Shown in pieces: positions 26,801 through 60,463 of a DNA stretch of 64,000 bases. Both the position numbers and the translations under genes were made by a program. The DNA comes from Bacteroidales bacterium (lineage in GTDB: Bacteria > Bacteroidota > Bacteroidia > Bacteroidales > M50B96), in the NCBI GenBank assembly GCA_018401015.1, contig JAGYLP010000003.1, positions 1-64,000 of the forward strand, given 5' to 3'. The notes beneath the pieces were generated by a model. The model had not been told where the DNA came from and did no database searches. It saw only the letters and a list, made by a program, of their open reading frames with translations. The first letter of the stretch is position 1. Every line of letters starts with the position of its first letter.

Positions 26801-27581
26801 GATCCGAAATAATCTGATAAACAACCGGAGCTTGCGAAATCAGCTCTTTACTGGAACTTGAATAATTGATTAAGGTTTTAAAATTAGTCTCAAACGTGGG
26901 AGAAAAGTACTTGCGTTTGAGGGCCGAGGTTGTTGCATAATCTGCTCCGACAAAACGCACTTTAAACTTGAGAGAGCTAAGTACTTTGATCGTGCCTGTT
27001 TGAGGTTGATAAGCAAATGCTTGCACGGCCAACCGACCGAGGCCAACACCCCGCATCGTTCCAAGTGATTCGATTTCAATAATATCCTCGGCATAAAACT
27101 GATTCGATTCATAAATCGCATCATTACGATAGAACGTCAAATCATTTTCATCCTCATGTTTTCCGACGCTCGGTTGAACAGGAAATAACTCCATTCCAGG
27201 AAAATCGGAGGTCAACGAAACAAGTTCATAGGTTTGTTCAATAATTTCTATTTCCCAGCTTGCTTGAAAAGGAATTTCGAGCATTCGATGATAAGCAGGA
27301 AGTTCAGGATTCCCAATCGCGTTGGCATTGATCCCAAAGCCTGGAACTTGTAGTCGAAAATACGTATTTCCATTTCGCTCTAGCGTTTCCACTCCAAATT
27401 GGCTAATTGATTGCTCCACGATAAATCCTTCCGGACTAATGTCGGTAAGAATGAAAGCGTCGTGGGTTGGTTGAAGCGAATAAATATGTCGTGAGCCGGC
27501 TTGAGCCAGGAGAAAGGCTGGCAAGGCCAATAAGAAAAAAGCATTCAGAAACCATGCTCTTACCAAAAAAGATGTCTTCAT
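23805..27581 (-). CDS. C25 family (gingipain-type) cysteine protease, T9SS type A, paralogue
   Basis: This 1258-residue paralogue of the downstream protease has the same architecture. It has a signal peptide (about 1-26), a propeptide, and a catalytic domain (about 255-610) with His460 in NYTAHCNSDGW. The nucleophile is predicted as Cys493, the second Cys of IGNCCLSSKF, by its 33-residue spacing from the His. Ig-like domains follow (about 690-920), then the same jelly-roll module (EPQGWAYYDYLEFFID), a cadherin-like repeat, and a type A T9SS domain (ASVFPNPASHSLQINW to the end). The active-site surroundings differ clearly from the partner (HCNSDGW versus HGSTTSF), suggesting different specificity or an ancient duplication. 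ATG at 27581. It is first in a two-gene operon. The leader contains an interrupted inverted repeat at 27594-27644. Confidence 0.93.
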   Translation of the reverse strand: MKTSFLVRAWFLNAFFLLALPAFLLAQAGSRHIYSLQPTHDAFILTDISPEGFIVEQSISQFGVETLERNGNTYFRLQVPGFGINANAIGNPELPAYHRMLEIPFQASWEIEIIEQTYELVSLTSDFPGMELFPVQPSVGKHEDENDLTFYRNDAIYESNQFYAEDIIEIESLGTMRGVGLGRLAVQAFAYQPQTGTIKVLSSLKFKVRFVGADYATTSALKRKYFSPTFETNFKTLINYSSSSKELISQAPVVYQIISDPMFAADLEPFILWKTQKGFQVQIAYTNDPNVGTSTASIQSYLSNLYTQASPSNPAPSFVLLVGDVQQIPAFAGTAGSHVSDLYYFCYDGASDYFPDIYYGRFSAQNIAQLQPQIEKTLEYEKYLMPDPSFLNEVVLVAGVDASYAPTHGNGQINYAVANYFNTTNGFTTHSYLYPASGSSATQIRQDVSNGVGFANYTAHCNSDGWADPSFVISHVPALQNVSQYPLMIGNCCLSSKFDDSECFGEAVLRANKKGAIGYIGGSNNTYWNEDFWFSVGHGTVTANPTYAQTGIGFIDAMFHLNGEPLSEWYITNGQIQYAGNLAVTAGGSSLVKYYWEIYHLMGDPSLTIYQGVPTSLVATYSNGLPLGATQLAVQTEEHAYIGLSKDSMLIAAAMAGSGGLVNLTFPPLSEMGDYQITITKQNRQPHVGQIQVFAANTPYVTCQSLSIQDPTGNQNGYADFSETIYLTPTLQNLGGIDATGLSIVCSSTDAAVTITQSSASLSGLLSQESADMVDAFELEIGDSIIDEQVVQLVFTISDNAGNTWESYGNLTLYAPLLSIEEVQVLDTPGNQNGRLDAGEVAYVSYLVKNIGHATYSEAITFIDSQSPYLSVISAPQSLNNLTVNSSDTLSLLIEIDPTAPINAIADLSIHVDAGFYSKTAQQTEGIQQIVEDWESNSMESFAWLNDSPIPWTIQDSEFVDGSFAARSGDISNNQSTSLELTIDVAQNDSISFHYFVSCEPQGWAYYDYLEFFIDNVSKGKWAGEIDWERAAFPITQGTHNLKWVYQKDGYVVEGQDLAIIDKVVFPPLTEWVSNTPPHITSVPDTIVWTGDSYHYELAASDADQDDLEMGFSMKPAFLQPGTQTLQTLSLDGTPGWIDLGNHWVVSYVSDGKAMASQYFVLQVKDNNAIADQPAIQASVFPNPASHSLQINWENSSIKSPLLRVFNAQGQQIDKTLYSESIPSNQSIQLSVEFLVSGLYFIELETEKSTTKIPFIKQ

Positions 27582-28519: not shown

Positions 28520-28683
28520 GGGAGCATATTAACCCCACGAAGATACTTTTTTCAATCCATTGAACGAGGGGTAACCCACGAACTTTGGAACAACATTTTT
28601 TTTTAAATTTATCGGGTTCATTTTACAACTATCGCAAAAATATCAGTCTAAAACTGGTATTATCACCTTATTTATTTCACTAT

Positions 28684-31600
28684 ATGAAGAACCTGCACCG
28701 CTTTATTCCTTTTTTAATTTTTGCGATTCTTCTCTATTTCCCCACTGTTTCCGTAGCACAAACCTTAAGCATAACTACCTCTGATTCTGAAGGTTGTTCT
28801 CCCCTGCTCGTGCAATTTTCAACGAATATGCCTGGTTTAGGAGCAGGTAACTACGAATGGAATTTGGGGAATGGTAATACCTCCGATGTAGCCAATCCGG
28901 TAGCAACTTATCTAAATCCGGGCGTTTATACCATTCAGGCTTTTGTTAACGATAATGGAACCATCCTCACGGCTAGTATCCAGGTTGAGGTATTTGCTAA
29001 TCCGCAGGCTAATTTTCAGCTTTCCAGTGGCGCCACTAGTGGTTGTACACCTTTTAATGTTCAGTTTCAAGATTTATCGACCCCGGGGAGTGGCTCCATT
29101 ACCTCTTGGAACTGGAATTTTGGGAATGGAACCGCTCAGTCATCAACCAGTAGCATCAACCCCAGCGTTGTGTATCAAACAGCAGGAAGTTTTTCCGTTA
29201 CCCTTCAGGTAGCCGACGAGAATGGATGTATCAACGCTCATACAGAAGTAAATCTGATTCAAACCTCGGGTGGACCCAGCCAGCTCTGGTATCCCAGCCC
29301 AAATGTATTTTGCGAAGTCCCGGCAAACACCATGATTGTAAATAACATGACCGGAGTAAGCACCTACTCATGGACAACCTCCGACGGTCAGAGCAGTAGT
29401 CTTCCGGCGCCCAGCTTTTCTTTTGCAGGGTTCAACAATGTGGTTGTAACACTCGTTGCAACCGATGCCCAGGGATGCTCCAGCTCGCGCGACTATACCA
29501 TTACGATTGGCGACGTAATTGCCGACTTCGACCTCACCGACATCATCTGTTTTGGAGAATCCTTTCAACCCGATAATCAATCGATTATTGCCAATCAATA
29601 TGAGTGGACCTTTCCGCAAGGAAGCAGTAATCAAATGGAACCCACCATTGAACTACTCACTCCCGGATGGAATACCGTCAGCCTTGAAGCGACCCTTAAC
29701 GGCGATTGCGCCGATACAAAAACCGACTCCCTATTCATCGAAACAGCCAATGCTAATTTTCAACTAAGCGACCCCTATATCTGCGTCTTGCCTCATGAAC
29801 AAGAGTACATTAATTATTCCAGCACCAATAGCTTAAATGGTGGGCTGGATTATTACTGGATTTTGGATTTCGAAACGAGCACGACCATTACCAACCCAAT
29901 CATCAACTACACCAATAACCAAAGTCTTTTTTCCGACGGATTTCATCTTTTCTACGATACCCTCATTGTAACGAGTCCCAATGGCTGCATCGATACAGCC
30001 GTTTCACAAACCGACATTTATTTACCTCATGTTTGGATGGCTATCGACCCCTTGGGAGGATGTGTTCCCTTCACTCCCGATGTGCAACCCGACATTCATT
30101 TCAATGTATGTCCGTACGATAGTATTATCATGCACATTTGGTCGTGGGGCGATGGAACCATCGACACAGCGCTCGTTCCACCACCCCATACTTATTCCGA
30201 TACCGGAATGTTCAACCTCGACCTGACGATTATCACCGCTTTGGGCTGCGTAGTGGAAGAAAGCTCATTTGTAATGGTTGGCGACACGACCAATATTGCA
30301 GAATTTGAAATTCAACCACCCACTACTATTTGTGGAAGCGATAGCCTTATGCCCTTCAATACTTCCACCATCAACACCAATACCTTCAACGTTACCTGGC
30401 ATTTAAACGGAGACTTAGCAGGTTCCGGATACTATGCGTATCTACACCCGGTCGATACGGGTTGGATGACCGTTTCCATGTTCATTAACCATAACCTCTG
30501 TATTGAGGATACGACGATTGAAAATGCCTTTTATGTCAATGGCCCAATTACGGAATTGGTAGGTTGGCATGTATGCGAACCGGATCCTTATCATTACACC
30601 TTTAACATGATTAAAGATTATGGCTACGAGACCTTTTTATGGGATTTTGGCGATGGGAACACCGATAACCTGAATGCTCCCATAACCACGCACGATTATA
30701 CGCAATCGCTCGATGGATGGGCTTTTCTTCACAGCTATAATGCCACAACCGGTTGTGAGTACCACGATTCCATCCAGGTGGTTGTGAGACACCCTATAGC
30801 GCAAATTGTGGCCGACACCCTCGATGTATGTGCAGGCGATACCATCACCTTCGAGTCTTATCAATCGCAAGACGAAGGAGTAATCAATCTCTTTTCCATC
30901 GATGGAATTTATCAATGGACTTTTGGGGATAGTACCTGGCACCCTTACACTTCTCCGTACGATAGCTCCCTGATTTACTTTACCATGGACACCGTTGTAA
31001 CCCACGCCTATAGCGATCCTGGGCAATACGAAGTCCAATTGGTTATCGTTGCCGAAAATGCCTGCACCGACACAACCACGATTTGGGTAAATGTGCGTAA
31101 ACCCATTCCAGATTTCGATTTAGTAACTCCCGACAATTGCAATCCGGTAACCGTACAATTCGACAACCATACCCAACACGATATCCCTATCGTCATTTGG
31201 AATTGGAATTTTGGTCCGGGAGGCACCTCCTCCTTGGAGCATCCGCCGGCTCTTCAGTATTCGAATCCGGGAGCTTACCCAATTACCTTGCAGGTGATCG
31301 ACTCGCTTGGTTGCAGTGGGAGTCTGACACAGATTCTATATTCGACCCAACCCGATGCCGATTTTGAACTTTCCACTCAACTGATGTGCCTTACCGACAC
31401 GCTCACCGTCACCAACCTGAGCGACTTTTTAAGTCCAACTGCCAGCTTCACCTGGCTTATCGATGGTGTGCCGGGACCATCAGGCTTCGAGCCTTCGATT
31501 GTATTCGAAGAGCAAGGCGAGCATCTTATCGACCTAATCGTGAACGATGGTGGATGTATCGACACGGCCGCCTTGAGCAATGCGACTGTTATGGTAGAAA

Positions 31601-33108
31601 CCGCTCATTTCCAAATAGACACAACTATTTCCGGCAAGTGTAGCCCCGTATTCGTCGATTTTTCAATCGACCCGGCAGTGTACTACTTTAATTCCATTTG
31701 GTGGGATTTTGGCGACGGGAGTACCGGCCATGTTATTACGCCACAGCATGTTTACAATACGCCCGGCACGTATCAGGTTTCGTTCGAGGCAGTAACTACG
31801 GCAGGATGTACAGGCGTTTCGACCATCGACATACCCATTGGCGGATCGACCGTTGGATTTCAGCTGGAACCCAAGGAAATTTGCTTGGGCGATAGCGTGC
31901 ATTTTAGCTTAACCGATAGTTTGAATCTCGGAGACTTTTTCATTGATTTCGGCGATGGGACCGGAAGCAATCAAGTTCCTATATCGCATTCTTATCACCT
32001 ACCTGGATTAAACGACACCGTGCAGGTCTTTTTTACCTGGACCGATATCAATGGAGAATGTCCGGATTCGGATTCCTCCTTTGTTAAAATTATCGATGTG
32101 CGGCCACGCTTTTTGGCCGGACCCAATCATTCGCAAATTGAAGGTTGCGAGCCTTACGAGGTACAATTCATCAATGAATCGGTGAATGCCGATGAATATT
32201 GGTGGGATTTTGGCGATGGATCTACCAGCGATCTGATGCATCCCTTGCATGCCTTTCAATCGGCCGGCGAATTTGAAGTTGAACTCACCATCTCCAATAC
32301 CCAATACGGATGCGATGAGGTTTCGACCCAGCATCTGATTACCGTCAACCCAAGTCCGACTATCATCCTGGAACCCAACCCGGAGCTATGTTTTGGCGAC
32401 AGTGTGCAAATAGAGGCTATCGGTGAACACGTGGCCAATTATACCTGGTCGCCCAACAGTTTCATCAGCGATATTTCTTCCCCTAATCCGATTTTCTATC
32501 CCCCGCAATCAATGATTTACAATCTCCATTTGATGTCGGATAAAGACTGTGTTGCTGATACCCTCATTGAATTGTTTGTGCAACAAGCTTTTGATTTGGA
32601 TTTAAGCGACACCGCACTAATTGTCGGTGAATACTTAAATCTGGATTTAGGAGAACGATACGAAGTGTATTACGAATGGAGTCCGCTAGATGGAATTGTT
32701 CAATCGGCGGGAGCCTATCCTATTTTTCAACCTTTAGAAAGCACGCAGTATCTCTTGGAAATAAGTGCCTATGCCAATGATAGTCTTTGTTTTAAATGGA
32801 CCGACAGCTTATACATCGATGTGTGGTGGGAATTCACCCTCGATGTGCCATCGGTTTTCACTCCCAATGGCGATGGGAATAACGACCTTCTTTTTGCACG
32901 TGGTTGGGGGATCAGACAATTGCTGGAGTTCACCGTTTATAACCGTTGGGGAGAGCAAGTCTTTTTCTCTCAAGACATTTCCGAGGGTTGGGATGGACGC
33001 CACCGCGGGCAAATTCAACCCGGGGAAACGTACTATTATCGGGTAAAAGCAGAGACATACGATGGGCGATTCCTGGAAAAGGAAGGGATGGTTAATTTGA
33101 TTCGCTAA
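28684..33108 (+). CDS. Giant PKD-repeat surface protein, T9SS type B
   Basis: This protein of 1474 residues starts at the ATG at 28684 (MKNLHRFIPFLIFAILLYF), which gives a proper signal peptide ending in SVAQ; an upstream in-frame ATG at 28585 would add a 33-residue non-signal extension. The mature protein is a string of at least eight PKD-type Ig domains marked by WNFGNG, WSWGDG, WDFGDG and HxY...G.Y.V.L motifs, interspersed with Cys-containing repeats. The C-terminal ~85 residues (VPSVFTPNGDGNND, YNRWGEQVFF, GWDGRHRG) form a type B T9SS domain. Such proteins are usually adhesins or components of surface filaments; no enzyme domain is visible. The 3' end overlaps the convergent TamB-like gene by 17 bp. 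Confidence 0.9.
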   Translation: MKNLHRFIPFLIFAILLYFPTVSVAQTLSITTSDSEGCSPLLVQFSTNMPGLGAGNYEWNLGNGNTSDVANPVATYLNPGVYTIQAFVNDNGTILTASIQVEVFANPQANFQLSSGATSGCTPFNVQFQDLSTPGSGSITSWNWNFGNGTAQSSTSSINPSVVYQTAGSFSVTLQVADENGCINAHTEVNLIQTSGGPSQLWYPSPNVFCEVPANTMIVNNMTGVSTYSWTTSDGQSSSLPAPSFSFAGFNNVVVTLVATDAQGCSSSRDYTITIGDVIADFDLTDIICFGESFQPDNQSIIANQYEWTFPQGSSNQMEPTIELLTPGWNTVSLEATLNGDCADTKTDSLFIETANANFQLSDPYICVLPHEQEYINYSSTNSLNGGLDYYWILDFETSTTITNPIINYTNNQSLFSDGFHLFYDTLIVTSPNGCIDTAVSQTDIYLPHVWMAIDPLGGCVPFTPDVQPDIHFNVCPYDSIIMHIWSWGDGTIDTALVPPPHTYSDTGMFNLDLTIITALGCVVEESSFVMVGDTTNIAEFEIQPPTTICGSDSLMPFNTSTINTNTFNVTWHLNGDLAGSGYYAYLHPVDTGWMTVSMFINHNLCIEDTTIENAFYVNGPITELVGWHVCEPDPYHYTFNMIKDYGYETFLWDFGDGNTDNLNAPITTHDYTQSLDGWAFLHSYNATTGCEYHDSIQVVVRHPIAQIVADTLDVCAGDTITFESYQSQDEGVINLFSIDGIYQWTFGDSTWHPYTSPYDSSLIYFTMDTVVTHAYSDPGQYEVQLVIVAENACTDTTTIWVNVRKPIPDFDLVTPDNCNPVTVQFDNHTQHDIPIVIWNWNFGPGGTSSLEHPPALQYSNPGAYPITLQVIDSLGCSGSLTQILYSTQPDADFELSTQLMCLTDTLTVTNLSDFLSPTASFTWLIDGVPGPSGFEPSIVFEEQGEHLIDLIVNDGGCIDTAALSNATVMVETAHFQIDTTISGKCSPVFVDFSIDPAVYYFNSIWWDFGDGSTGHVITPQHVYNTPGTYQVSFEAVTTAGCTGVSTIDIPIGGSTVGFQLEPKEICLGDSVHFSLTDSLNLGDFFIDFGDGTGSNQVPISHSYHLPGLNDTVQVFFTWTDINGECPDSDSSFVKIIDVRPRFLAGPNHSQIEGCEPYEVQFINESVNADEYWWDFGDGSTSDLMHPLHAFQSAGEFEVELTISNTQYGCDEVSTQHLITVNPSPTIILEPNPELCFGDSVQIEAIGEHVANYTWSPNSFISDISSPNPIFYPPQSMIYNLHLMSDKDCVADTLIELFVQQAFDLDLSDTALIVGEYLNLDLGERYEVYYEWSPLDGIVQSAGAYPIFQPLESTQYLLEISAYANDSLCFKWTDSLYIDVWWEFTLDVPSVFTPNGDGNNDLLFARGWGIRQLLEFTVYNRWGEQVFFSQDISEGWDGRHRGQIQPGETYYYRVKAETYDGRFLEKEGMVNLIR

Positions 33109-36100
33109 CCTGATCGGTATTATCGGAATATAAAAAGCGAAAATACTTCCTCCACAGATCGCCTACTGAGTTGAATTCCTCCCGGAAGAACACGCCTACC
33201 CCACGAGTAAACGGACCCTTTTCATAATCGAGATTGGTATTCGAACGATTAAATGCCTTAATCCGTACTTTCCCGGAGGGTGTAATTTTCAATTCAGCTT
33301 CCACATCGCCTACCATGGTGTTCGTGAATGCATACTGCCCTCCCACTCCAAGGTTGCCGTTTATGGTAAGGTAGTCGTTGAATAACTGAGTACGCAGTGC
33401 AAATTCCAGTTCATCGGTCGAAAGCTCGTTACCCGGTCGGTATTTAAAACCGATATCAAAATCGTTACTAATCTGAGAAATCCAGTGCGATAACTGATTC
33501 GACAGAATCTCGGTTGTATTTTGTGACAGATTTGAGCTACCAAAAGCAGAACCACCGGCCAGACTAAATCCGGATAGAGGTTGAAACTGATTGATTACCA
33601 ATAAAGAAATAAACTGTTTATTAAGCTCATTCTCAGGCAACCCATCGATTATTGCCTGTTCTGTATCGGCCGAAGGAGGTAATTGAATTCCAAAATTAAA
33701 ATCGGGCTCCAACAATTTTCCGTTCATGGCAATCTGACATTCCACTTGCAGTTTATTTCGATACACATCGGAGCTATCCGACAGTAAATCTTTCAATTGA
33801 GCCTGTGCTTCGTAGTAAGCAACAATATCCATATCGGCCTCATAAGGGCTACCTGTCCAACGAATTGTTCCTCCTTCTTTAATTTTAAACTTCCGGCTAA
33901 AAAAGTTCGCCAAAGTGAGCAAATACTCACCCTTTTGAATGGTATAGTCGCCGTACATGGTAAAATCGCCTTGGGAATTGATCTCCATTTTAAGATTTGC
34001 ATTCCCGTTCCCTTTGATAATATCGCCCATTTTAGAATCAAAAATCATTTGCACTTCGGCTTCCGGGGTAACTTCAAGATTGAAGTTCAATCGCAGGCCG
34101 CCGGGAACGGTCACTTCTTCGGGCACTTCTTTTTCAAGAATTTTTTCATTCGGATTCACAAAAGTGACGAAAGATCCGGAACTGGCCTCTGAGCCCGAAT
34201 CTAAGGGGATGAGAAAACTAGTTCCAGCTAACGTTTTAGCATTGATATCGATTAAAAGTTTGTTCAACGGACCACTCAACCGAAATACACCAGCAGCCAA
34301 GGCTCGCCCATAATAACTTGCATTATCGTCGAAATTGGTATTAAGCACCAGTATTTTGTCCGACAAAATGCTTAAATCCATTGCAATATTCCGAAAAGAC
34401 TGATGAGAAAAATGGCCATTGAGTTGAGCCGGGTTACCATCCTGATCGGTCATGGCAACTTGGCTAAATCGAATCGTATCGGGAGTAAACTGGATAATAT
34501 CGCTGAAGAAATAGCGTGTTTGAAGGTAATCGACTGTAAAGGCAGCCTTTTGGACTTTTAATTCACCAAGCAATTGAGGTTGAGAGGCTGGTCCGGTTAA
34601 TTTCAATCGATTACTAATTAATCCGTTCATATTGGAAAAAATACCGGTCAACCAAGGCTCAGCTGCTTTCAGGTTCATCTTATCCAAGGTAATGGATAAA
34701 TCGAGCATTCCTCCATTAGGTTGAACCGTTCCATTCACAAGCATCGGTGTAAGTTTCCCCGATTGAATCCGTGAATCGACTTCGACCAGCTTTAAGGAAT
34801 CGTTCCACACGCTGGAAAGGAATAAATCGCCATGGTGATGTTCATTCAGGATGAATGAATCCACTTGTAAGTCGGCAAAGAATAATGAGCCCTCCGGTCC
34901 GGTAAGAATGCTTGCCGTTCCATTGATTAATCCGGCCGGATCGAGCGTCCAGTTGCGAGTTAAGGGCGAGAAATCGGCTAATTCAATATTCGACAGTTGT
35001 ACCAAAAATGTATCCGTTTCTTGCCTGTTCAGGCCGCCTCTCAAGCTTATTGACTGATCGTTATGCAGCGCTTTAAATGAATCGAGGAGCAAGCCATCGC
35101 GGCCAAATTGAGCGCTCCCCGGTTCAATGGACCATACCGAATCGGCAACTACAAGTTCGGAGGAAAGTAAGTCGAGAAAAAACCTTGGACTGGCAGGTGA
35201 ACGGTCTTCGATGTATAACAAGGCGTTGATATTCCCCTGATTCATTTGTGTGGTTCGGTTTTTCCATTGCAAACTAAACAAGGAGGTATCCGACTTGCTG
35301 GTCGAAACGAAGGTTAGGCTATCGAGAAAAAAAGATTCCGAAACAGTAATCTTTTCAGCATTCCAATCAAATCGCAATTCCTCAAAATCAGCTACTATGC
35401 TTGCATTCGCGTTCTTCACCTCAGTAGAATTGAATCGAAAAATCGGAACATCAAACATCAATTCAAATGTGGGTGTTGCCGAATTCATGCTTCCAAAAAA
35501 CGTCCCTCCTTCCGGCAAACGAACAGAAGGAAGAAAAGCTCGAAAAAGTGAATCGCTCGATTTCACTTCGAGGGAGTAAGTAAAATCATGCTCCTCCTCA
35601 ACCGGTTCATAGGCTAATCCAGAACTCGGGAAATAATAACTTAAATATTGTGTCATTAAGCGCGGAATATCTTTGAACAGATACTGACCATCTATTTGCA
35701 AATCGAGTAAGGACGATTGCAGGCTCAAGTAACTATTTCCAGCTATTCGGTTTGCAAACAGGGCGAAATTGTCCATTTGAACGGGATTCCCATTCCGATT
35801 ATAGTCAACATCCCACAAGAGGATTTCTCCCTCCAGGTCGTCGAGCGTGCTAGCTCGGAAATTGGTTTGAATATCGGCACTAAAAGAGGCAATACTGTCG
35901 GAGGGGGTAAGCCCAAGAGCAGCTAAATTAAATGTATCGACCAGAGCCGAAAATGAGAAAAAGGGAACTTCATCCGAAAAATCGATAATCCCTGAAAACT
36001 CAAGCGACAAATGCTCATCGTCTACCTGTACGAATCCGTCAAAACGCATGTTTTCCTGCTTCCCTCGCAACTCAAATCCTCGGATAATTTGATTGTTGAA

Positions 36101-37480
36101 GGATATTTCCTGCACCGTACCGTCCAAGGTGGTGGTTGAATAACGATCGCCCATTCGGTAACCGGATAGCTTCAGGTCCAGGTTTACATGGCCAAGCGAC
36201 GATACCGTAGGAAATACTTTCGAAAGCTGATAGTGCTCCGTTGCAATCCTACCAGCGTATTGCAAGGTTTGGGTTAGCGGATTCTCGCTGAGCTTGATAT
36301 CGCTGAGCAAGGTTCCGGCATCGCTTTTCAACTCACCAAAGGCTACAAAATCAGCTACAAAACCGGTAAAATAACCTCGATACGTAAACACGCCCAAGTC
36401 TTTCACCAGCCCTGGAATCTGAACATACGATTCCCCGGCTAAATCGGGTAAGCGCAAACTTTCAACATCGGCTGAATACGTTCGAAATGTTTCAATATCG
36501 GCATGAATAAACGTCTCGTCCACTTCCGGCAATCCCATAAACTGGATATCTCCCTTAAAACGAGTCTCATCTCCATAGGCCAAATCGACGTATTGGCAAT
36601 TCAAACTTCCCACTTTGCCGGTTACATAGGCATCGATTGAAAGTTCATCCTCCATCCCTTCGAGACTGGGGGCGAATAGGGCTAGTTCCGATAAAGAGAT
36701 GTGAGCGTTTTGGAGATTTATTTCCATTTGAACCTGTTCAACAAAATCGGACAAACCATCATAATCAGCATAATCGAACCGAAGGCTTTTCAATTCCAGG
36801 TTCGATTCAGCAAGTTGTAAACGGGTGCTATTGAGGCTAAGAACCTGAGGGTGCACCAACAATTCACCGGTAATTTGCTTCATGGTTAGGCCTGATGCTT
36901 CGCGGAAGGAAAGCTGATTGAAAGTGGCCTGAATGGAGTCGGAAACGAGTGAAAAATCGTGGGCATAAATATTTAAATCGCTGAAGCGCAAATCGAAATA
37001 ATTAACACCGAAGCGTTTGGGCTCAGCATCGAATCGGGTAATATAAACGCGAGAATCCTCTGTAGCGACTTCATCGGCAAAAATCTTCCATTTATCTTGG
37101 GTGGTACCTGCGCTGTCTTTTTTGAGGTATTGCACTAAAAATCTCAGATTGCTGTATCCATCGGCCTCTTTATTTAGGTGCATAAAAAACTCCGTCATCT
37201 TCACTTTTGTCAGATGAATCGACTTTTCATCCCGCCGAATCATTCCGATGCCAGCATCCAGTTCACCGATAAAAAATAAGGTATCGCCTTGCTGATCCGA
37301 CACATAAACCTCTTCGAGAGAGAGCGTATTGAGAAAACGAAGGGCTACATGACCTACCCGAACGTCGACCTGCAATTCCTCAGCTACTTGCCCGGAAATA
37401 TAATTGACCACTTTCGTTTGGACATAAGGAATTTGCAACAGGCCAGATATCAATAAAGGTATTGCAATCAGGCTGAGCAA
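33092..37480 (-). CDS. TamB-domain (AsmA-like) translocation/assembly protein
   Basis: A protein of about 1462 residues with an N-terminal hydrophobic anchor, then a long repetitive beta-rich region (repeated LxLDSF, GxL and LxGxF strands) and the C-terminal TamB/DUF490 domain (about 1100-1440: NGNANLKMEINSQGDFTMYG, EGGTIRWTGSPYEADMDI, ATYEA-like segments, LLVINQF). It should bridge inner and outer membranes and help phospholipid transport or outer-membrane protein assembly. The start is uncertain: no ATG precedes the anchor. TTG at 37480 is the first conventional start, but an in-frame ATT at 37511-37513 would restore a basic n-region (IKRLRKIVLYVLL) that matches family expectation. A promoter-like pair (CAAA at 37560-37563 and TAAAAGTA at 37531-37538, plus-strand reading) limits how far upstream it can begin. 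Confidence 0.85.
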   Translation of the reverse strand: MLSLIAIPLLISGLLQIPYVQTKVVNYISGQVAEELQVDVRVGHVALRFLNTLSLEEVYVSDQQGDTLFFIGELDAGIGMIRRDEKSIHLTKVKMTEFFMHLNKEADGYSNLRFLVQYLKKDSAGTTQDKWKIFADEVATEDSRVYITRFDAEPKRFGVNYFDLRFSDLNIYAHDFSLVSDSIQATFNQLSFREASGLTMKQITGELLVHPQVLSLNSTRLQLAESNLELKSLRFDYADYDGLSDFVEQVQMEINLQNAHISLSELALFAPSLEGMEDELSIDAYVTGKVGSLNCQYVDLAYGDETRFKGDIQFMGLPEVDETFIHADIETFRTYSADVESLRLPDLAGESYVQIPGLVKDLGVFTYRGYFTGFVADFVAFGELKSDAGTLLSDIKLSENPLTQTLQYAGRIATEHYQLSKVFPTVSSLGHVNLDLKLSGYRMGDRYSTTTLDGTVQEISFNNQIIRGFELRGKQENMRFDGFVQVDDEHLSLEFSGIIDFSDEVPFFSFSALVDTFNLAALGLTPSDSIASFSADIQTNFRASTLDDLEGEILLWDVDYNRNGNPVQMDNFALFANRIAGNSYLSLQSSLLDLQIDGQYLFKDIPRLMTQYLSYYFPSSGLAYEPVEEEHDFTYSLEVKSSDSLFRAFLPSVRLPEGGTFFGSMNSATPTFELMFDVPIFRFNSTEVKNANASIVADFEELRFDWNAEKITVSESFFLDSLTFVSTSKSDTSLFSLQWKNRTTQMNQGNINALLYIEDRSPASPRFFLDLLSSELVVADSVWSIEPGSAQFGRDGLLLDSFKALHNDQSISLRGGLNRQETDTFLVQLSNIELADFSPLTRNWTLDPAGLINGTASILTGPEGSLFFADLQVDSFILNEHHHGDLFLSSVWNDSLKLVEVDSRIQSGKLTPMLVNGTVQPNGGMLDLSITLDKMNLKAAEPWLTGIFSNMNGLISNRLKLTGPASQPQLLGELKVQKAAFTVDYLQTRYFFSDIIQFTPDTIRFSQVAMTDQDGNPAQLNGHFSHQSFRNIAMDLSILSDKILVLNTNFDDNASYYGRALAAGVFRLSGPLNKLLIDINAKTLAGTSFLIPLDSGSEASSGSFVTFVNPNEKILEKEVPEEVTVPGGLRLNFNLEVTPEAEVQMIFDSKMGDIIKGNGNANLKMEINSQGDFTMYGDYTIQKGEYLLTLANFFSRKFKIKEGGTIRWTGSPYEADMDIVAYYEAQAQLKDLLSDSSDVYRNKLQVECQIAMNGKLLEPDFNFGIQLPPSADTEQAIIDGLPENELNKQFISLLVINQFQPLSGFSLAGGSAFGSSNLSQNTTEILSNQLSHWISQISNDFDIGFKYRPGNELSTDELEFALRTQLFNDYLTINGNLGVGGQYAFTNTMVGDVEAELKITPSGKVRIKAFNRSNTNLDYEKGPFTRGVGVFFREEFNSVGDLWRKYFRFLYSDNTDQVSESN

Positions 37481-54034: not shown

Positions 54035-57000
54035 TTAGTACCGAATAAGCTTTTCTCGCTTGATCAGGTTCCCTTTCACATCCGACACTTCTAATAAATA
54101 CAATCCTACGGGATATTGATTCATCGGAATGATGTGTGTTTGTTTAAAATCGGAACCTTGAGCCATGCGTTTCCCATCCAGTGTCGATAATTGCCAGTGA
54201 ATCAAGTCGGAGCCCGACTGGATGGTAACATGTTCCCGGACTGGATTCGGATAAATCGACAAACCTCTCGAAATCTCCTGTAAATCGGCAGTTAGAACCT
54301 GTCCATCATTTAATTGGAAATCAATCCATACTCCAGGAGGATCCACCGGGAGGGTCACACAAACCCAATCGGAGACTAATCCTGGTTTTTCCACTCGTAA
54401 ACAATATTGACCTTCCGTAAGCGAGCTAAATCGAAACATCCCCGCAGGATTAGTCAGTAAGCTTTGAACAGGATCGCCCTCGCTGTTAAGTAAGTTCACC
54501 ACGATATTGCAGGCCATATCGGAGCTGACCTCAATTTCGTTCATTCCCCAGGCTGATTCATAAAAGCTTGGCAAATAGGACGGATCATTCCCAAGGGAAA
54601 CCGAACCTGCAATACTATATTCTCCCGGCTCGCTAGTAGGATTATAATCCATGAAAACATCGACGCCACCGGTGAATCCCTGGGCCATCACTTTGACAGC
54701 CATCGGCCATTCGATAGCATGCAAATAATAACTAGCAATCCAACCTGTTAAATGCGGTTCTGGAATAGCGTGAATCAAGTATTCATTGGGCAATAAACCT
54801 TCCAACTGATAGATTCCATTTTGAACGTCGCACTGTGCCACCGGGAAATAGCGTCCGTTCTGCTCTTGATAAGCTACAACCCAACCACCCGGCAGGTACT
54901 CTCCTAAAGAATTTTGAATCTGACCGCTTAGGCTTACAGAATACAAAGCTTGTAAACAGGAATTTCCTTGAAGTTGCCAAGTATCAGAATCGGGGCAAGT
55001 CGAATTAAAAATAGCCCGTGCCGGATAAACTCGATTCTCAACAGCTCGCCAAATGGAAAACTCAAAGGATTCTCCCTCCAAAAAACCGTTGGGATCGATC
55101 GAGAATCCATTGTTCCCATGGGCAAATAAGCTTTGCGTATTTCCTTCCCAAACCAGGTATCCTCCACAAGCCATGCTTCCCAGGGAATCGTAAAAGACGC
55201 CTACCAGGTCGTATGGATTCAGTCCCATACCATTGAGCTGAACCGTTGCTGTTTCGGGAATTACAATTTCATGGTAATCGCCTTGTGAGTCGAAATTCCA
55301 ATCGGGTAAAACACTCAAATCGACAAATACCGAGACAAGCGATTGGCATTGCAATTGATCGCTTACACTAACTTGATAAGCTCCGTAAGCAGCCGAATCC
55401 AATTCGGCACCAATCGCACCATTCGACCAGCTATAGTGATAGGGACCCTGCCCTCCGGTGGTTTCAAGATTTACCCTGCCAGGTGACAGCGTTTGTGGAT
55501 CGAAAGCTTCGACAAAAGCGACGACTCCTAACGGTGGGTTTTGTTCCACCGAAACGGTTTCTGTGAGGGTGTCGCCATTGGCTCCGCTAATGGTAAAAGC
55601 ATACATTCCGGCTACCAAGTTCGAACGGGAAGAGCCTGTAGCCCCATCGCTCCAATTGATTTGAATTGGAGAAACACCCAGAATCGAATCGATGGAAATG
55701 CTTCCGGTGCTATCGCCATAACAAGCTACGGGAACAAGTTCAGTCTGATAATCGAGAAATAGTCCGTTATAAGGTAGTTCAACACTATCGGAAGCGGCAC
55801 AGCCATTGGCATCATATACAGTAAGGCTGTACCAGCCATAATTCAGTTGGTTTATTTCCGACTGCGTTTGTCCGGTATTCCAACTAAAACTGTAGGGAGG
55901 CGTTCCGCCCAATGCCTCCGCTTGTATCAGTCCATCGTCGCCAACATCTACCGAAACAGGAGTAAGTACCCAATCAAACAACAAGGAATCCGGATTGTGG
56001 AGCGAAAAACTTTGCTCAACCGGATTAGACTGAATACAGAATAGACTTCGAATTCGGGAGGTTCCGTTGGCATAAAATTCTCCCTGATGCGACATACTGG
56101 AACTATACTCAGCTTCCATCACGTAGGTGGCACTATCCAATTCGATTTCCCAACGGAAAGATTCTCCTTCCGTAAAACCTTCTTTATTAGGAGTGACTGG
56201 GTCGTCACCATACACGCTAAATAGGATATCGCCACCAAGCCAAATAGATTTTCCTCCACACACCCACTGACCATTATCTTGAAAGAAAACGGCTAATTGA
56301 GCATGGAGAGGGACAGGCAAACCATTAAAATAGAGCGTATTTTGTGGCACCACGACTGAATGGACAAAAGTGGTAGAGTCAAAATTCCATGGGAGCGGTG
56401 TTCCAGGTTGATTTGAATTGACGTCGTTTACCGTAACCGAATAATTTCCAGCGCAAAGTTGAGCCAGGCTAGACTGCGAGGATCCGTCGGACCAAAGAAA
56501 AGAATAAGGTTGTGTGCCTCCACTTGGGTTTACTAAAATAGCACCTGAACAACTATCGTGGCAAAGCGGCTGAACGACATCAATTTGTACCTGCAAATTC
56601 ATTTCGGGTTGGAAGGTTCCAAAATAAACCGGGACGAGGGTATCCCAAAGGCAAGCATACGTCGATTCTAAATAAAGATGATAGCGTTGAGCTTCAATAT
56701 TCATGAGTTGATAGCCTCCTGCCCCATTCGACCACTTAGCCTGAGCATTGAACCAATCCGGCGAATTAATTGCGATAGCAGCTGAGCCTCCCTGAGTAGA
56801 ACTTGCATTGGTGGTAGTAATCGACACGTCGGGATGCATAGGATCTCCCGGAGTAACAACACTCATGTTCTGCGAATAACCACTGGGATGGGTAAGTGTG
56901 AGCTGGTAAAGCGTATTCGGCAAGTAGTTCTGAATAATTCCTGTGGTGGCTCCGTTGCTCCATTGATAGGTATAGGAAAGATCGGCATTGGGTGGGTTAA

Positions 57001-58006
57001 CGCGCAGATAGCCATCGGAGGTATTATAACAAGTTGGTTTTTGCAACATGAGCGATGTATTAGCGGTCATTTCGGAAGGATAGGAGAAAATGACCGGTTC
57101 ATTCATCACTGCCCGATAGACTTGAGCCGTTTGTAGAGGTGGCATGGTCGATAAGCCTGGCTGTGGCCAGAAAAGGTTTCCTAATTCATCGGTAATTAAA
57201 TGAATAGCAGGATTATACTTAAATACTGCTGCAGGATTAGGATTTAAAATCGGGTAAATGGAAAAGAAATCGTTGAAGCCTGGAAATACTTTGACGCTAT
57301 GCAGAAAACTTGCCGACGCAAACAAACTGACCAAGCCGCTACTACCTCCTGGCGTAAAGAGCGAATCGTTAGGAAAAGCAACACCGGCAGGGTAAAAATT
57401 CGGAGTAGCAATATAGTCTTTCTGAGCGCTTTGACTCCTAATTAGGAAACGGAAGGATTCACCCGTTTGGAAACCATTCTCTCCATTTTCAGCTCCATAG
57501 ATCGCCATAAATTGAGGTGAACCGGTCCAAACAGCATAACCAGCGCAAGCCCACTGATAGCTTGAATCGTAAAACACACCTACTAAATCGCCCGGCGCCA
57601 AATCAATTCCTGAGAGCTGGACGGCCGATCCTCCGGGCAAATAGAGTTGATGCTGGATCGAGGTAGGTTCAACCTGCCAACTGAGTTTAAAATTCGGGTT
57701 AACGGCGTGAATTTCGTAGTCGCGAAAATGAAGCTGCCCCAGGAAATCGGTGATGGTTACTTCGTAGTAGCCCGGGGCCAGGTTGAAAATATTTTGCGTC
57801 GTGTCGCCATTGCTCCACATGAAAGTGGCCGGCAAAGCTATCCCTTGCACATTGGGTCGTATAAATCCATTCGCGAGTTCGTCTGTAGCATTCTTCAATT
57901 CAAAGCCAGGTTCCAAAGGCACTTGAGCAGTTAGCGAGCCTGTGGAAAGACTCCAAACTACCAATGCAAAGCTTGCATACCATCTTATTTTAGAAAAATA
58001 CTTCAC
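54035..58006 (-). CDS. T9SS type A surface protein with SprB-like and repeated CGG/GFxxGE modules
   Basis: This 1323-residue exported protein has a signal peptide (residues 1-27, SLTAQ). A module of about 100 residues occurs three times (about 105-205, 540-640 and 905-1000). Each copy has a PDLVGVFY or LAVFF strand, then a Cys-containing ACGGY / VCGGKS turn, a VWxG strand and a GFxxGESF motif. Between them are SprB-like repeats (CYGDSTGSI ... INWSDGAT ... AGMYAFTI). Two carboxypeptidase-regulatory/CnaB-like domains follow (about 1035-1120 and 1140-1250), then a type A T9SS domain (LSIYPNPVREHVTI to the end). It is third in an operon with an ECF sigma factor and a membrane anti-sigma-like protein; the start is 30 bp after that gene. 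An adhesive or structural surface role is likely. Confidence 0.9.
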   Translation of the reverse strand: MKYFSKIRWYASFALVVWSLSTGSLTAQVPLEPGFELKNATDELANGFIRPNVQGIALPATFMWSNGDTTQNIFNLAPGYYEVTITDFLGQLHFRDYEIHAVNPNFKLSWQVEPTSIQHQLYLPGGSAVQLSGIDLAPGDLVGVFYDSSYQWACAGYAVWTGSPQFMAIYGAENGENGFQTGESFRFLIRSQSAQKDYIATPNFYPAGVAFPNDSLFTPGGSSGLVSLFASASFLHSVKVFPGFNDFFSIYPILNPNPAAVFKYNPAIHLITDELGNLFWPQPGLSTMPPLQTAQVYRAVMNEPVIFSYPSEMTANTSLMLQKPTCYNTSDGYLRVNPPNADLSYTYQWSNGATTGIIQNYLPNTLYQLTLTHPSGYSQNMSVVTPGDPMHPDVSITTTNASSTQGGSAAIAINSPDWFNAQAKWSNGAGGYQLMNIEAQRYHLYLESTYACLWDTLVPVYFGTFQPEMNLQVQIDVVQPLCHDSCSGAILVNPSGGTQPYSFLWSDGSSQSSLAQLCAGNYSVTVNDVNSNQPGTPLPWNFDSTTFVHSVVVPQNTLYFNGLPVPLHAQLAVFFQDNGQWVCGGKSIWLGGDILFSVYGDDPVTPNKEGFTEGESFRWEIELDSATYVMEAEYSSSMSHQGEFYANGTSRIRSLFCIQSNPVEQSFSLHNPDSLLFDWVLTPVSVDVGDDGLIQAEALGGTPPYSFSWNTGQTQSEINQLNYGWYSLTVYDANGCAASDSVELPYNGLFLDYQTELVPVACYGDSTGSISIDSILGVSPIQINWSDGATGSSRSNLVAGMYAFTISGANGDTLTETVSVEQNPPLGVVAFVEAFDPQTLSPGRVNLETTGGQGPYHYSWSNGAIGAELDSAAYGAYQVSVSDQLQCQSLVSVFVDLSVLPDWNFDSQGDYHEIVIPETATVQLNGMGLNPYDLVGVFYDSLGSMACGGYLVWEGNTQSLFAHGNNGFSIDPNGFLEGESFEFSIWRAVENRVYPARAIFNSTCPDSDTWQLQGNSCLQALYSVSLSGQIQNSLGEYLPGGWVVAYQEQNGRYFPVAQCDVQNGIYQLEGLLPNEYLIHAIPEPHLTGWIASYYLHAIEWPMAVKVMAQGFTGGVDVFMDYNPTSEPGEYSIAGSVSLGNDPSYLPSFYESAWGMNEIEVSSDMACNIVVNLLNSEGDPVQSLLTNPAGMFRFSSLTEGQYCLRVEKPGLVSDWVCVTLPVDPPGVWIDFQLNDGQVLTADLQEISRGLSIYPNPVREHVTIQSGSDLIHWQLSTLDGKRMAQGSDFKQTHIIPMNQYPVGLYLLEVSDVKGNLIKREKLIRY

Positions 58007-58036
58007 GAAATCAGCATCAAAAACCTGTTAAATGTA

Positions 58037-59653
58037 TTAGAAATTATAGCCGAGTCCAAACTTAATTCCACTGGATTGAAACTGATAGCGGATTGATTCA
58101 ACGTCCATCAGTTCGCGCAAGGATCGACGATAAAAAGCTTCGCCAAAGAGGAAATAATGAAAAGAAAAGTTGTATTGCAAACGGGCACTTAGGAATAAAT
58201 CCGGACGGTAGCTTGGAAAATGATCGCGGGTTAGATGTATCAGGCTATAGGGTTCGGTCGTTTGCGCGGCTTGCCCTTCCCATCGCCACAGAAACGAGTG
58301 GATCACTCCAATTTTCAAACTCGTGGTAACTGCTCCATGGCTGGAAGTATAACCCATTAAGGTTGGAATTTCCCAAAAGCGATAAACCCCGCCAACATTC
58401 CAGGCATGCCGATTAAGGATGGTATCTGTTTCAATCTGAAAGCTCGAATCGGAAACTTCTACCCATTCACTCTCCGTTACATACACAATAATTGTATCGC
58501 CATCGACAATCTGAAAATAGGAACTAACCGTATCTATTTGCAGAAAACTTGTATCGAAATAGGTCCATAGGGTTTGCTCAAAAATGCTGGTCTCTTCCTT
58601 CACCAAACGGCGAGCATCGTCTATCTGCAAATAATTTAGTCCCGATTCGAAAAGGATGTTTCTCCTTTGCCATTGTAGTTGAAATCCCAACTCCCGAATC
58701 CGCATACTTGCTGGATGTTGATTCAATAAAGCTAACAAAGGTAACTGTTCATCGTTCGTAGTTGCCAGGTTATACCCGGCCCGATGCTCGGCATAACTCA
58801 GTGAGGCTGACCAATAAACCGGAGCAGGATAAGCGTGCTCTCGCTCACTCCCAAGGGCCATGGCTGGTGTTTGTTCTTTAAGAACCAAACCACGACGCGA
58901 CATCGATTCCGGGACGAATAAACCAGCTTGTGACTCTTTAAAATAAGTATCGGATTCCAGGCCGGAGAAGCCAGGCGATTCGCTTACAGGATTGCTGCCA
59001 CTAGCCATTTGAGCAGAAGAATTAACGAGTAAAGTGGAAAAAGAAGATGATGATGATGAAGTTGAAGAAGTTGAAGATGAAGTTGAAGTTGAAGATGAGA
59101 AAGGAGCAGGAATGGAAGAAGAGGAAGAGGATTGGGAATTGGCTTCAGCCATAGATTCCGAAAAATTGGTGTGGTCGGTATTAATCGACGATTCGAGTGG
59201 ATCGATTGATTTAAGAGGGAAACCGGCATTGGCCGTAAGATTATTCGATAAACCAGGCGCTTGTGAGCTTTCGGCACCTAGGGCCCTAAGCTCCTTTTCG
59301 TCAATCGAGGATAAGACATCCTGTTCATTTCCTTCGCCCATAAATTTAGCTGATTCGGGATCGATCGCTTGAGCAGGAACACTTTGGGTATTTGCTGCCT
59401 GATCGATCTTCGATTCAGCCATCCTAGAATTAACCTCTTCGCGTGGCAACCAACGCATTAAGGCAAATACCACGACCCCAATTAACACAGAGCCCACTAC
59501 CCATCGATAAAAAACACGGGTAAGCAATCCCCCCGACTCACTTCGATTGAGCGTATGAGCCAATCGGTCCCAGGCTTGCGAGCTACCCTCCTTGGTGGCT
59601 ACTGACAGACCCTTCTCGAACAGGTCGTCGATGTAGTTCATTTCATCCTTCAT
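58037..59653 (-). CDS. Dual membrane-spanning anti-sigma-like protein (Dma type)
   Basis: This 538-residue protein has an unusual layout. Residues 1-45 are cytoplasmic and charged (MNYIDDLFEKGLSV ... AWDRLAHTL), as in short anti-sigma domains. One inner-membrane helix (about 51-67, WVVGSVLIGVVVFAL) follows, then about 200 residues of low-complexity linker, with a Ser/Thr tract at 175-208. Residues 278-538 show regular amphipathic strands (YWSASLSYAEHRAGYNL, ELGFQLQWQRRNILFESG, FSFHYFLFGEAFYRRSL) ending KFGLGYNF with a terminal Phe, as in outer-membrane beta-barrels. It lies 27 bp after an ECF sigma gene. This architecture matches the dual membrane-spanning anti-sigma factors described in Bacteroides. 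The signal sensed, and proteolysis versus direct conformational signalling, are unknown. ATG at 59653; ATG at 59641 is possible. Confidence 0.75.
   Translation of the reverse strand: MKDEMNYIDDLFEKGLSVATKEGSSQAWDRLAHTLNRSESGGLLTRVFYRWVVGSVLIGVVVFALMRWLPREEVNSRMAESKIDQAANTQSVPAQAIDPESAKFMGEGNEQDVLSSIDEKELRALGAESSQAPGLSNNLTANAGFPLKSIDPLESSINTDHTNFSESMAEANSQSSSSSSIPAPFSSSTSTSSSTSSTSSSSSSFSTLLVNSSAQMASGSNPVSESPGFSGLESDTYFKESQAGLFVPESMSRRGLVLKEQTPAMALGSEREHAYPAPVYWSASLSYAEHRAGYNLATTNDEQLPLLALLNQHPASMRIRELGFQLQWQRRNILFESGLNYLQIDDARRLVKEETSIFEQTLWTYFDTSFLQIDTVSSYFQIVDGDTIIVYVTESEWVEVSDSSFQIETDTILNRHAWNVGGVYRFWEIPTLMGYTSSHGAVTTSLKIGVIHSFLWRWEGQAAQTTEPYSLIHLTRDHFPSYRPDLFLSARLQYNFSFHYFLFGEAFYRRSLRELMDVESIRYQFQSSGIKFGLGYNF
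59030..59130. repeat. GAA/GAT-type low-complexity tract coding a Ser-rich linker
   Basis: The plus strand reads as repeated GAA, GAT and GTT triplets; the minus strand encodes a run of Ser and Thr (residues 175-208 of the anti-sigma-like protein). In-frame triplet slippage could change linker length without breaking the gene. Confidence 0.7.
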
Positions 59654-59680
59654 ACTCCTGAATATTATTATTCTTCACTT

Positions 59681-60316
59681 TCAAATTACCATTCGAAGCA
59701 AATCGCGATACTGGCGATTACGTTGCTCCATTTTTCGTTTCATGGCCAGGTTGAACAGCTCATCTTGAAGCGCTTTCCTTGCCCTGAACAATTGCGACTT
59801 ACTGGTTCCTTCGGTTATGGAAAGATTTTCAGCAATTTCGCGATGGGTCATTTTTTCGATGGCATACAAATTAAATATGGTTCGTGAACCTTGGGGTAGA
59901 ATATCCATCACCTCCATCAGTTCATCTTGCGTGAATCCGGTGTTTCGAATCAAATCTTCCTTACTTTCTTCCTCGGCATCCACTTCTTTTTCTTTCAGAT
60001 AATACTGATCGAAAACCGAGAGCCATTCGTCTTCGCCAGAAAAAACCTCTTTATTCAATTTTTTTATCCGATTAATGGATAAGTTGATGAATATCCGCTT
60101 TAGCCATCCTTCAAAGGAACCTTTGTAGGCGAATTGATGAATAGAATCGTACACTTTGATAAAACCATCGTGAACTAAGTCCTCCGCCTCGGCTGCATTA
60201 CCCGTATAGCGTAAACAGATGAGCCTCATCATGGGAGAAAACTGCTCGTAAAGTAGCTTTTGCCCCAGATGCTCATTTCGTTTACATGATTCGATAATTT
60301 CTTTGAGGTCGGTCAT
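59681..60316 (-). CDS. ECF (extracytoplasmic function) sigma-70 factor
   Basis: This 211-residue ECF sigma factor has region 2 at about 20-90 (EQFSPMMRLICLRYTGNAAEAEDLVHDGFIKVY, with DLVHDGF as the core-binding/-10 segment and GSFEGWLKRIFINLSINRIKK following). Region 4 is at about 135-190 (LPQGSRTIFNLYAIEKMTHREIAENLSITEGTSKSQLFRARKALQ), a complete helix-turn-helix for -35 recognition. A charged linker rich in Lys and Glu separates them. ATG at 60316. It is first in a three-gene operon with the anti-sigma-like membrane protein (27 bp later) and the T9SS surface protein. ECF operons usually drive their own promoter; no consensus could be derived from one sequence. Confidence 0.93.
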   Translation of the reverse strand: MTDLKEIIESCKRNEHLGQKLLYEQFSPMMRLICLRYTGNAAEAEDLVHDGFIKVYDSIHQFAYKGSFEGWLKRIFINLSINRIKKLNKEVFSGEDEWLSVFDQYYLKEKEVDAEEESKEDLIRNTGFTQDELMEVMDILPQGSRTIFNLYAIEKMTHREIAENLSITEGTSKSQLFRARKALQDELFNLAMKRKMEQRNRQYRDLLRMVI

Positions 60317-60463
60317 TCCGCTCGCGTATGTGTTATAGAGTTATTTCCAACGAATGGTTGCAGAAAAATAAGGACTTTTTAAACATTTTCTTCGGTTTGT
60401 TTATTCGCTAAAAATGTGTTTATATTACCCCCCACATACCAAACCAATAAACACCTAGCTATC

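Follow-up and report, generated by a model that had tools for sequence, protein, structure and literature searches.

Within the window, i.e. the whole stretch of 64,000 nucleotides that was analysed, we identified by sequence analysis and structure prediction an operon that joins an ECF sigma factor, a dual membrane-spanning (Dma)-type anti-sigma factor and a cargo protein of the type IX secretion system (T9SS), with a promoter motif that also precedes other T9SS cargo genes bearing the same C-terminal module and a cargo synteny that recurs in relatives. We consider it likely that this is an autoregulated sigma/anti-sigma operon having a T9SS surface protein as its output. An operon of these three parts had been proposed in the preliminary description of this DNA, and as a whole it is borne out by domain matches and an AlphaFold model; its three minus-strand genes, separated by gaps of 27 and 30 bp, also have the coordinates and lengths first claimed:

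59681..60316, minus strand: ECF sigma factor, 211 aa (Sigma70_r2, Sigma70_r4_2, TIGR02937)
58037..59653, minus strand: predicted Dma-type anti-sigma factor, 538 aa (AlphaFold, OmpA-type fold match, N-terminal profile match)
54035..58006, minus strand: T9SS cargo with type A signal, 1323 aa, five SprB repeats, start codon GTG (PF13573 x5, PF18962, TIGR04183)

The 211-aa protein matched Sigma70_r2 (2e-16) and Sigma70_r4 (2e-14) of Pfam as well as the sigma70-ECF family TIGR02937 of NCBIfam (94.5 bits, cut-off 42.9). Its sigma family comprises six genes in this genome, all of which adjoin, or contain, a T9SS signal: two belong to operons with Dma and cargo, one to a split operon with cargo, two to operons with an anti-sigma-like protein that itself ends in a T9SS C-terminal sorting domain (CTD-tailed; C12 and C67), and one to a Dma operon with a CTD gene upstream (C18).

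Neither Pfam nor NCBIfam assigned the 538-aa protein to a family, and as no FecR domain was matched in it by either collection, it was not classed as FecR-type. The AlphaFold model, calculated with 24 related sequences and having a mean pLDDT of 56 with values above 90 in parts of the barrel only, contained helices at residues 2-18, 25-37 and 43-68, disorder at 80-267 and about eight strands within 270-538, resulting in the following predicted layout:

59528..59653, minus strand: putative sigma-binding helices of the cytoplasmic N-terminus, residues 1-42 (helices 2-18 and 25-37; sigma-fused in split relatives)
59450..59527, minus strand: predicted inner-membrane helix, residues 43-68 (hydropathy and AlphaFold helix 43-68)
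58853..59449, minus strand: predicted disordered, Ser-rich periplasmic tether, residues 69-267 (24% Ser; pLDDT below 50 for 80-267)
58040..58852, minus strand: predicted C-terminal eight-strand outer-membrane beta-barrel, residues 268-538 (AlphaFold, fold matches)

The protein has a single hydrophobic helix with a hydropathy peak at residues 47-67, its linker contains 24% Ser over residues 71-278, and the predicted barrel carries a long loop (355-413) and has Phe as C-terminal residue. Residues 265-538 matched the eight-strand barrels OmpA, NspA, OprF and OmpW with Z values of about 15-16.5 (Foldseek, VIA-align). Structure prediction of 58037-59653 had been expected to give one helix, a disordered linker and a barrel of 10-12 strands; all three elements were recovered, but with 8 strands, as indicated by the VIA-align Z of about 16 to OmpA, NspA and OprF. 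In a profile comparison with Dma-like proteins of Dysgonomonas and Proteiniphilum (hhalign), with the B. thetaiotaomicron sequences outside the comparison, residues 1-70 aligned (84%, E 7e-6) and no alignment was obtained for the barrels. Published Dma factors consist of an anti-sigma region, one helix, a disordered tether and a barrel (PMC13088901). The AlphaFold layout, the OmpA-type fold and the N-terminal profile match support this architecture here, the 538-aa protein by prediction being of the Dma type with two small helices, an inner-membrane helix, about 200 disordered residues and an OmpA-like barrel; Dma factors go with an adjacent sigma factor of the ECF21 group, and the adjacent sigma factor of this operon is assigned as ECF only. 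As in Bacteroides, the sigma gene adjoins the anti-sigma gene, and anti-sigma region, inner-membrane helix, tether and barrel are by prediction combined in one chain.

The type A T9SS identity ascribed to the 1323-aa protein was confirmed by two profiles, both over their curated cut-offs, Por_Secre_tail PF18962 (37.1 bits, cut-off 27; residues 1251-1316) and TIGR04183 (38.1 bits, cut-off 23). Pfam further detected five SprB repeats (PF13573) and a CarboxypepD_reg/SdrD_B-like region, and the N-terminus, MKYFSKIRWYASFALVVWSLSTGSLTAQ, resembles a signal peptide by sequence, with high hydropathy in the windows starting at 11-13. The T9SS translocon SprA (2658 bits) and the sortase PorU (1139 bits) are present in this genome. 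The C-terminal part of the cargo comprises two elements:

54038..54256, minus strand: T9SS type A C-terminal sorting domain, residues 1251-1323 (PF18962)
54263..54976, minus strand: subterminal transthyretin-like (CarboxypepD_reg/SdrD_B) module (alignment of 24 cargos)

This module of about 210 residues, located directly before the sorting domain, is common to 24 of 40 Dma-operon cargos, which differ outside their C-terminal parts (PKD in 29, SprB in 10, others). All strong matches to it in this genome (3/3) are the cargos of three sigma/Dma operons, and both matches of a congener (2/2) also lie in such operons. Over ten genomes about 24 of 43 strong matches are found in sigma/Dma operons and about 19 of 43 in standalone cargo of larger genomes, ruling out that the module is exclusive to Dma operons, as it is in this genome and the congener. 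In view of the standalone cargos, the module may have a role in folding or in anchoring to the surface. Another repeated module (GVFYD...CGGY.VW.G...GF..GE.F.W.I), with no Pfam match, is visible in the window cargo (54035-58006) at residues ~120-220, 555-640 and 935-1030, and recurs in the giant cargo of locus L016.

When 294 genomes of this order were searched with a Dma profile, 179 gave matches. Among the strongest matches, which were picked on Dma score only with a profile built mostly from cargo-bearing operons, 65 barrel-type operons are not cut by a contig end; a gene with a T9SS signal lies immediately downstream in 44 and is the second gene in 5 more, leaving 21 of the 65 without a CTD gene immediately next. 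Counted by family, T9SS cargo comes next in 22 of 28, compared with 4 of 80 at the control position upstream of the sigma gene (11 of 311 for the other genes of the loci), demonstrating the synteny of Dma and T9SS cargo genes in relatives. The CTD profile used for these counts was home-made, and a Pfam check of 40 cargos found Por_Secre_tail in 37 and CHU_C in 5. In an independent phylum-wide sample, selected by sigma similarity alone, a CTD gene comes next in 4 of 45 barrel-size operons and a lipoprotein-like gene in 18 of 45. The co-occurrence of Dma and T9SS cargo, which the preliminary description had considered as a fixed one, is thus strong in the order, though not fixed, and rare elsewhere in the phylum. 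These numbers suggest that an exported product is common, with T9SS cargo being its form in this order, and that the T9SS may be one output route of several. In loci L030, L032, L039 and L044 (Dysgonomonas, Proteiniphilum and other Bacteroidales) the third gene of the Dma operon encodes a lipoprotein-like protein of about 250 aa; the lipoprotein-like third genes of Dysgonomonas and others gave no Pfam match.

Upstream of the sigma gene we located a candidate promoter:

60336..60362, minus strand: putative ECF-type promoter TGCAACC-(N15)-CTCTA (exact match to TGCAACNNTTN{10,14}STCTA)

It reads TGCAACCATTCGTTGGAAATAACTCTA (60362-60336) and is located some 20 nt ahead of the start codon of the sigma gene. 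A common ECF-like motif, TGCAACCTTTT-N-GTCTA, is found close upstream of sigma genes, recurring as TGCAACC-TTTT-N-GTC(T)A mostly 35-50 nt from the start codon, and TGCAAC is present in 66 of 174 sigma upstream regions as compared to 6.4 +/- 2.8 in shuffles. Throughout the genome the strict pattern has 4 matches, 3 of them just upstream of family sigma genes (window, C46 and C67), and the reversed pattern used as control has 0, so that the operon, its motif preceding the sigma gene, looks autoregulated. Motif matches precede T9SS cargo genes of this genome too (C10 and C78). The pattern GCAACCTTTN{8,13}GTCT gave 19 matches over 10 genomes, about 12 of which lie before sigma or CTD genes, a count that is weak taken alone as the reversed control gave 10. 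In additional regions the motif occurs upstream of 7 of 21 module-bearing T9SS cargo genes, selected by module and not by motif, and before none of 165 other genes (0/23 other CTD genes, 0/142 others; Fisher 8.5e-8), making control of cargo supply by the sigma factor well supported. Structure prediction, the 28-family survey and the common promoter motif all speak for the earlier suggestion that the sigma factor sets the supply of cargo; the assignment of promoters among the six paralogous sigma factors, i.e. which would read which, is putative.

Two sister architectures link the same sigma family to T9SS in other ways. In the CTD-tailed type the gene after sigma keeps the same N-terminus and single helix but carries at its C-terminal end a T9SS signal of type B (CHU_C, PF13585), which scores over the curated cut-off in most of the CTD-tailed anti-sigma factors scanned. 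This type is found at L050, L058, L061, L076, L077, L088, L091 and L106 and at ten loci of this order, L191, L197, L204, L206, L210, L211 and L213-L216 also belonging to it, and TGCAAC is present upstream in 14 of 18 CTD-tailed loci. This genome has both kinds of anti-sigma factor, the Dma barrel type and the type B CTD-tailed one, the latter at two places:

L236:2006-3673 and L238:6840-8156: CTD-tailed anti-sigma-like proteins of this genome (C12 and C67)

A separate CTD gene comes next in 1 of 10 CTD-tailed operons of the order, whereas 49 of 65 operons of the barrel type have one within two genes (Fisher 1.3e-4). In L197, L206 and L216, which form one family, the next gene encodes a barrel of the PorP/SprF family (229-236 bits, cut-off 91), and a Foldseek search with the CTD-tailed anti-sigma factor of L106 gave generic Ig-like matches only (E > 0.004). 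In P. gingivalis and F. johnsoniae, type B signals are bound by barrels of the PorP type (PG1035-PorP, SprB-SprF; PMC9143113), so that the combination of helix, tether and type B signal with a PorP-like barrel could be a two-piece equivalent of Dma. Type B signal and neighbouring PorP/SprF gene resemble these pairs, but the bearer of the signal, an exported surface cargo there, would here by prediction be held in the inner membrane and bind sigma.

In the split type (L028, L029, L165 and C34 of this genome) a single in-frame chain combines sigma with the N-terminus, helix and tether of Dma, and the barrel forms a secreted protein of its own, with T9SS cargo next in order. The fusions are:

L028:305-1570: sigma/anti-sigma N-terminus, in-frame fusion
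L029:9601-10839: sigma/anti-sigma N-terminus, in-frame fusion
L165:1357-2604: sigma/anti-sigma N-terminus, in-frame fusion
L235:3603-4826: sigma/anti-sigma N-terminus, in-frame fusion

Being natural in-frame fusions, they provide independent evidence that sigma and the Dma N-terminus work together, and homology and fusions suggest that the two would bind each other also where they are separate chains. The barrel protein of the split type has a signal peptide, and YDTV-type motifs occur both at the tether end and at the barrel N-terminus. Parallel operons of sigma, FecR-like protein, secreted barrel and a T9SS cargo of about 1000 aa were seen at L024, L170, L176, L182, L184, L190 and L198, the barrel protein of L024 having by eye an apparent STN-like N-terminus.

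From these components we infer both a release mechanism and a signal. The N-terminal helices of the Dma-type protein would hold the ECF sigma factor at the inner membrane, with the disordered tether leading to the Dma barrel in the outer membrane. A change at the outer membrane, reported by barrel or tether, would release the sigma factor, which would then use the TGCAACC/CTCTA promoter to transcribe its own operon and would probably act likewise on other T9SS cargo genes with a like promoter, yielding more surface protein. That the signal is tied to the status of the T9SS or its cargo is plausible, if unproven, and rather less than evenly probable. For the earlier proposal that the barrel would sense secretion or occupancy of the cargo, the sister anti-sigma factors with a type B end provide indirect support only. 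More tentatively, the T9SS machine itself might be the sensory input of this sigma family, with the Dma barrel or a type B signal held by PorP/SprF linking the anti-sigma factor to the T9SS, and with cargo traffic or machine availability deciding whether sigma makes more cargo, a T9SS parallel to the secretion-coupled anti-sigma control known from FlgM.

The strongest competitor is a general envelope-stress switch, in which the barrel senses a condition of the outer membrane (lipid, LPS, stretch) and the T9SS protein is a protective or adhesive product, without feedback from cargo or secretion. We give this reading a chance not far short of even, as lipoprotein-like genes take the place of cargo in the 18 of 45 barrel-type operons found elsewhere in the phylum and as Dma1 and Dma2 of B. 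thetaiotaomicron control vesiculation, in a paper whose text contains no mention of 'type IX' secretion (PMC13088901). However, a stress switch leaves unexplained why sister anti-sigma factors of the same genome have type B T9SS ends and why the dispersed motif-bearing genes encode T9SS cargo with the same module. Cell-surface signalling, where the surface cargo docks via its subterminal module on the barrel loops (355-413) and changes anti-sigma activity in a positive or negative loop, is consistent with a module common to 24 of 40 cargos whose other domains differ (PKD, SprB, others) and with the confinement of its strong matches to sigma/Dma operons in this genome and the congener; we regard it as unlikely given that nearly half of the strong matches (~19/43) are standalone cargo of larger genomes. 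The 538-aa protein might also serve chiefly to tie the two membranes together structurally, with its anti-sigma function being secondary, as one chain has both inner-membrane helix and outer-membrane barrel, but this is very improbable in view of the ECF sigma partner throughout the survey, the N-terminal helices that are sigma-fused in split variants, and the published Dma1 and Dma2, which act through their sigma (PMC13088901). A neutral neighbourhood, with cargo following Dma through operon inheritance in the order and the abundance of T9SS genes (113 PF18962 matches in this 2.9 Mb genome), is the least probable reading, for the enrichment lies far over background (22/28 families), the cargos differ outside their C-terminal parts, and the common promoter also precedes unlinked cargo.

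The preferred reading, an autoregulated operon with T9SS surface output, builds on two things already known, Dma factors and ECF control of the T9SS machinery. Deletion of dma2 in B. thetaiotaomicron raises das2 and downstream genes by 2.5 to 6 log2, the das2/dma2 operon appears autoregulated, and Dma3 has its sigma as an N-terminal fusion (PMC13088901). Unlike in B. thetaiotaomicron, the downstream gene is here a T9SS cargo, the motif reaches dispersed T9SS cargo genes, and some relatives swap the barrel for a type B T9SS signal or a separate barrel protein. PorXY-SigP and PorA of Porphyromonas gingivalis likewise link an ECF sigma factor with the T9SS and a CTD-bearing protein, which is proposed to relay a surface signal, but SigP acts via a two-component system, its targets are T9SS machinery genes, and an anti-sigma factor of the Dma type is not described there (PMC7712824). 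In F. psychrophilum ECF-type SM6 promoters precede gldN and porU (PMC9723704). A literature search, with most subscription papers outside its scope, found neither Dma factors reported to control T9SS cargo nor anti-sigma factors carrying a T9SS signal. Coupling of an anti-sigma factor to a secretion machine is also embodied by the secreted flagellar anti-sigma factor FlgM, which is small, soluble and fully exported, and belongs to a different secretion system. In FecI/FecR/FecA signalling an outer-membrane barrel likewise signals to an ECF sigma factor, but with three proteins and TonB, whereas Dma needs one chain only; operons resembling this system and carrying T9SS cargo were found in the survey as well (e.g. 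L024, L170 and L182).

How Bacteroidota choose among 100 or more T9SS cargos is, to our knowledge, largely unknown. Published ECF control (SigP) concerns machinery genes; the present analysis connects one family of sigma factors with a promoter motif and a set of cargos in a directly testable way. It also widens the role of Dma factors, so far studied in Bacteroides, to the control of surface-protein output. If functional, anti-sigma factors with a T9SS sorting signal would be regulators physically wired into that secretion system. The recurrence of the arrangement in many uncultured relatives suggests a little-known matching of surface-protein production to the state of the envelope.

The window holds further T9SS-related genes. 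Two tandem gingipain-type proteins (peptidase C25), each with propeptide and T9SS type A signal, are encoded on the minus strand at 20110-23793 and 23805-27581, and a PKD-repeat protein with a T9SS type B signal on the plus strand at 28585-33108, the latter gene being convergent with a TamB-family gene at 33092-37480 on the minus strand.
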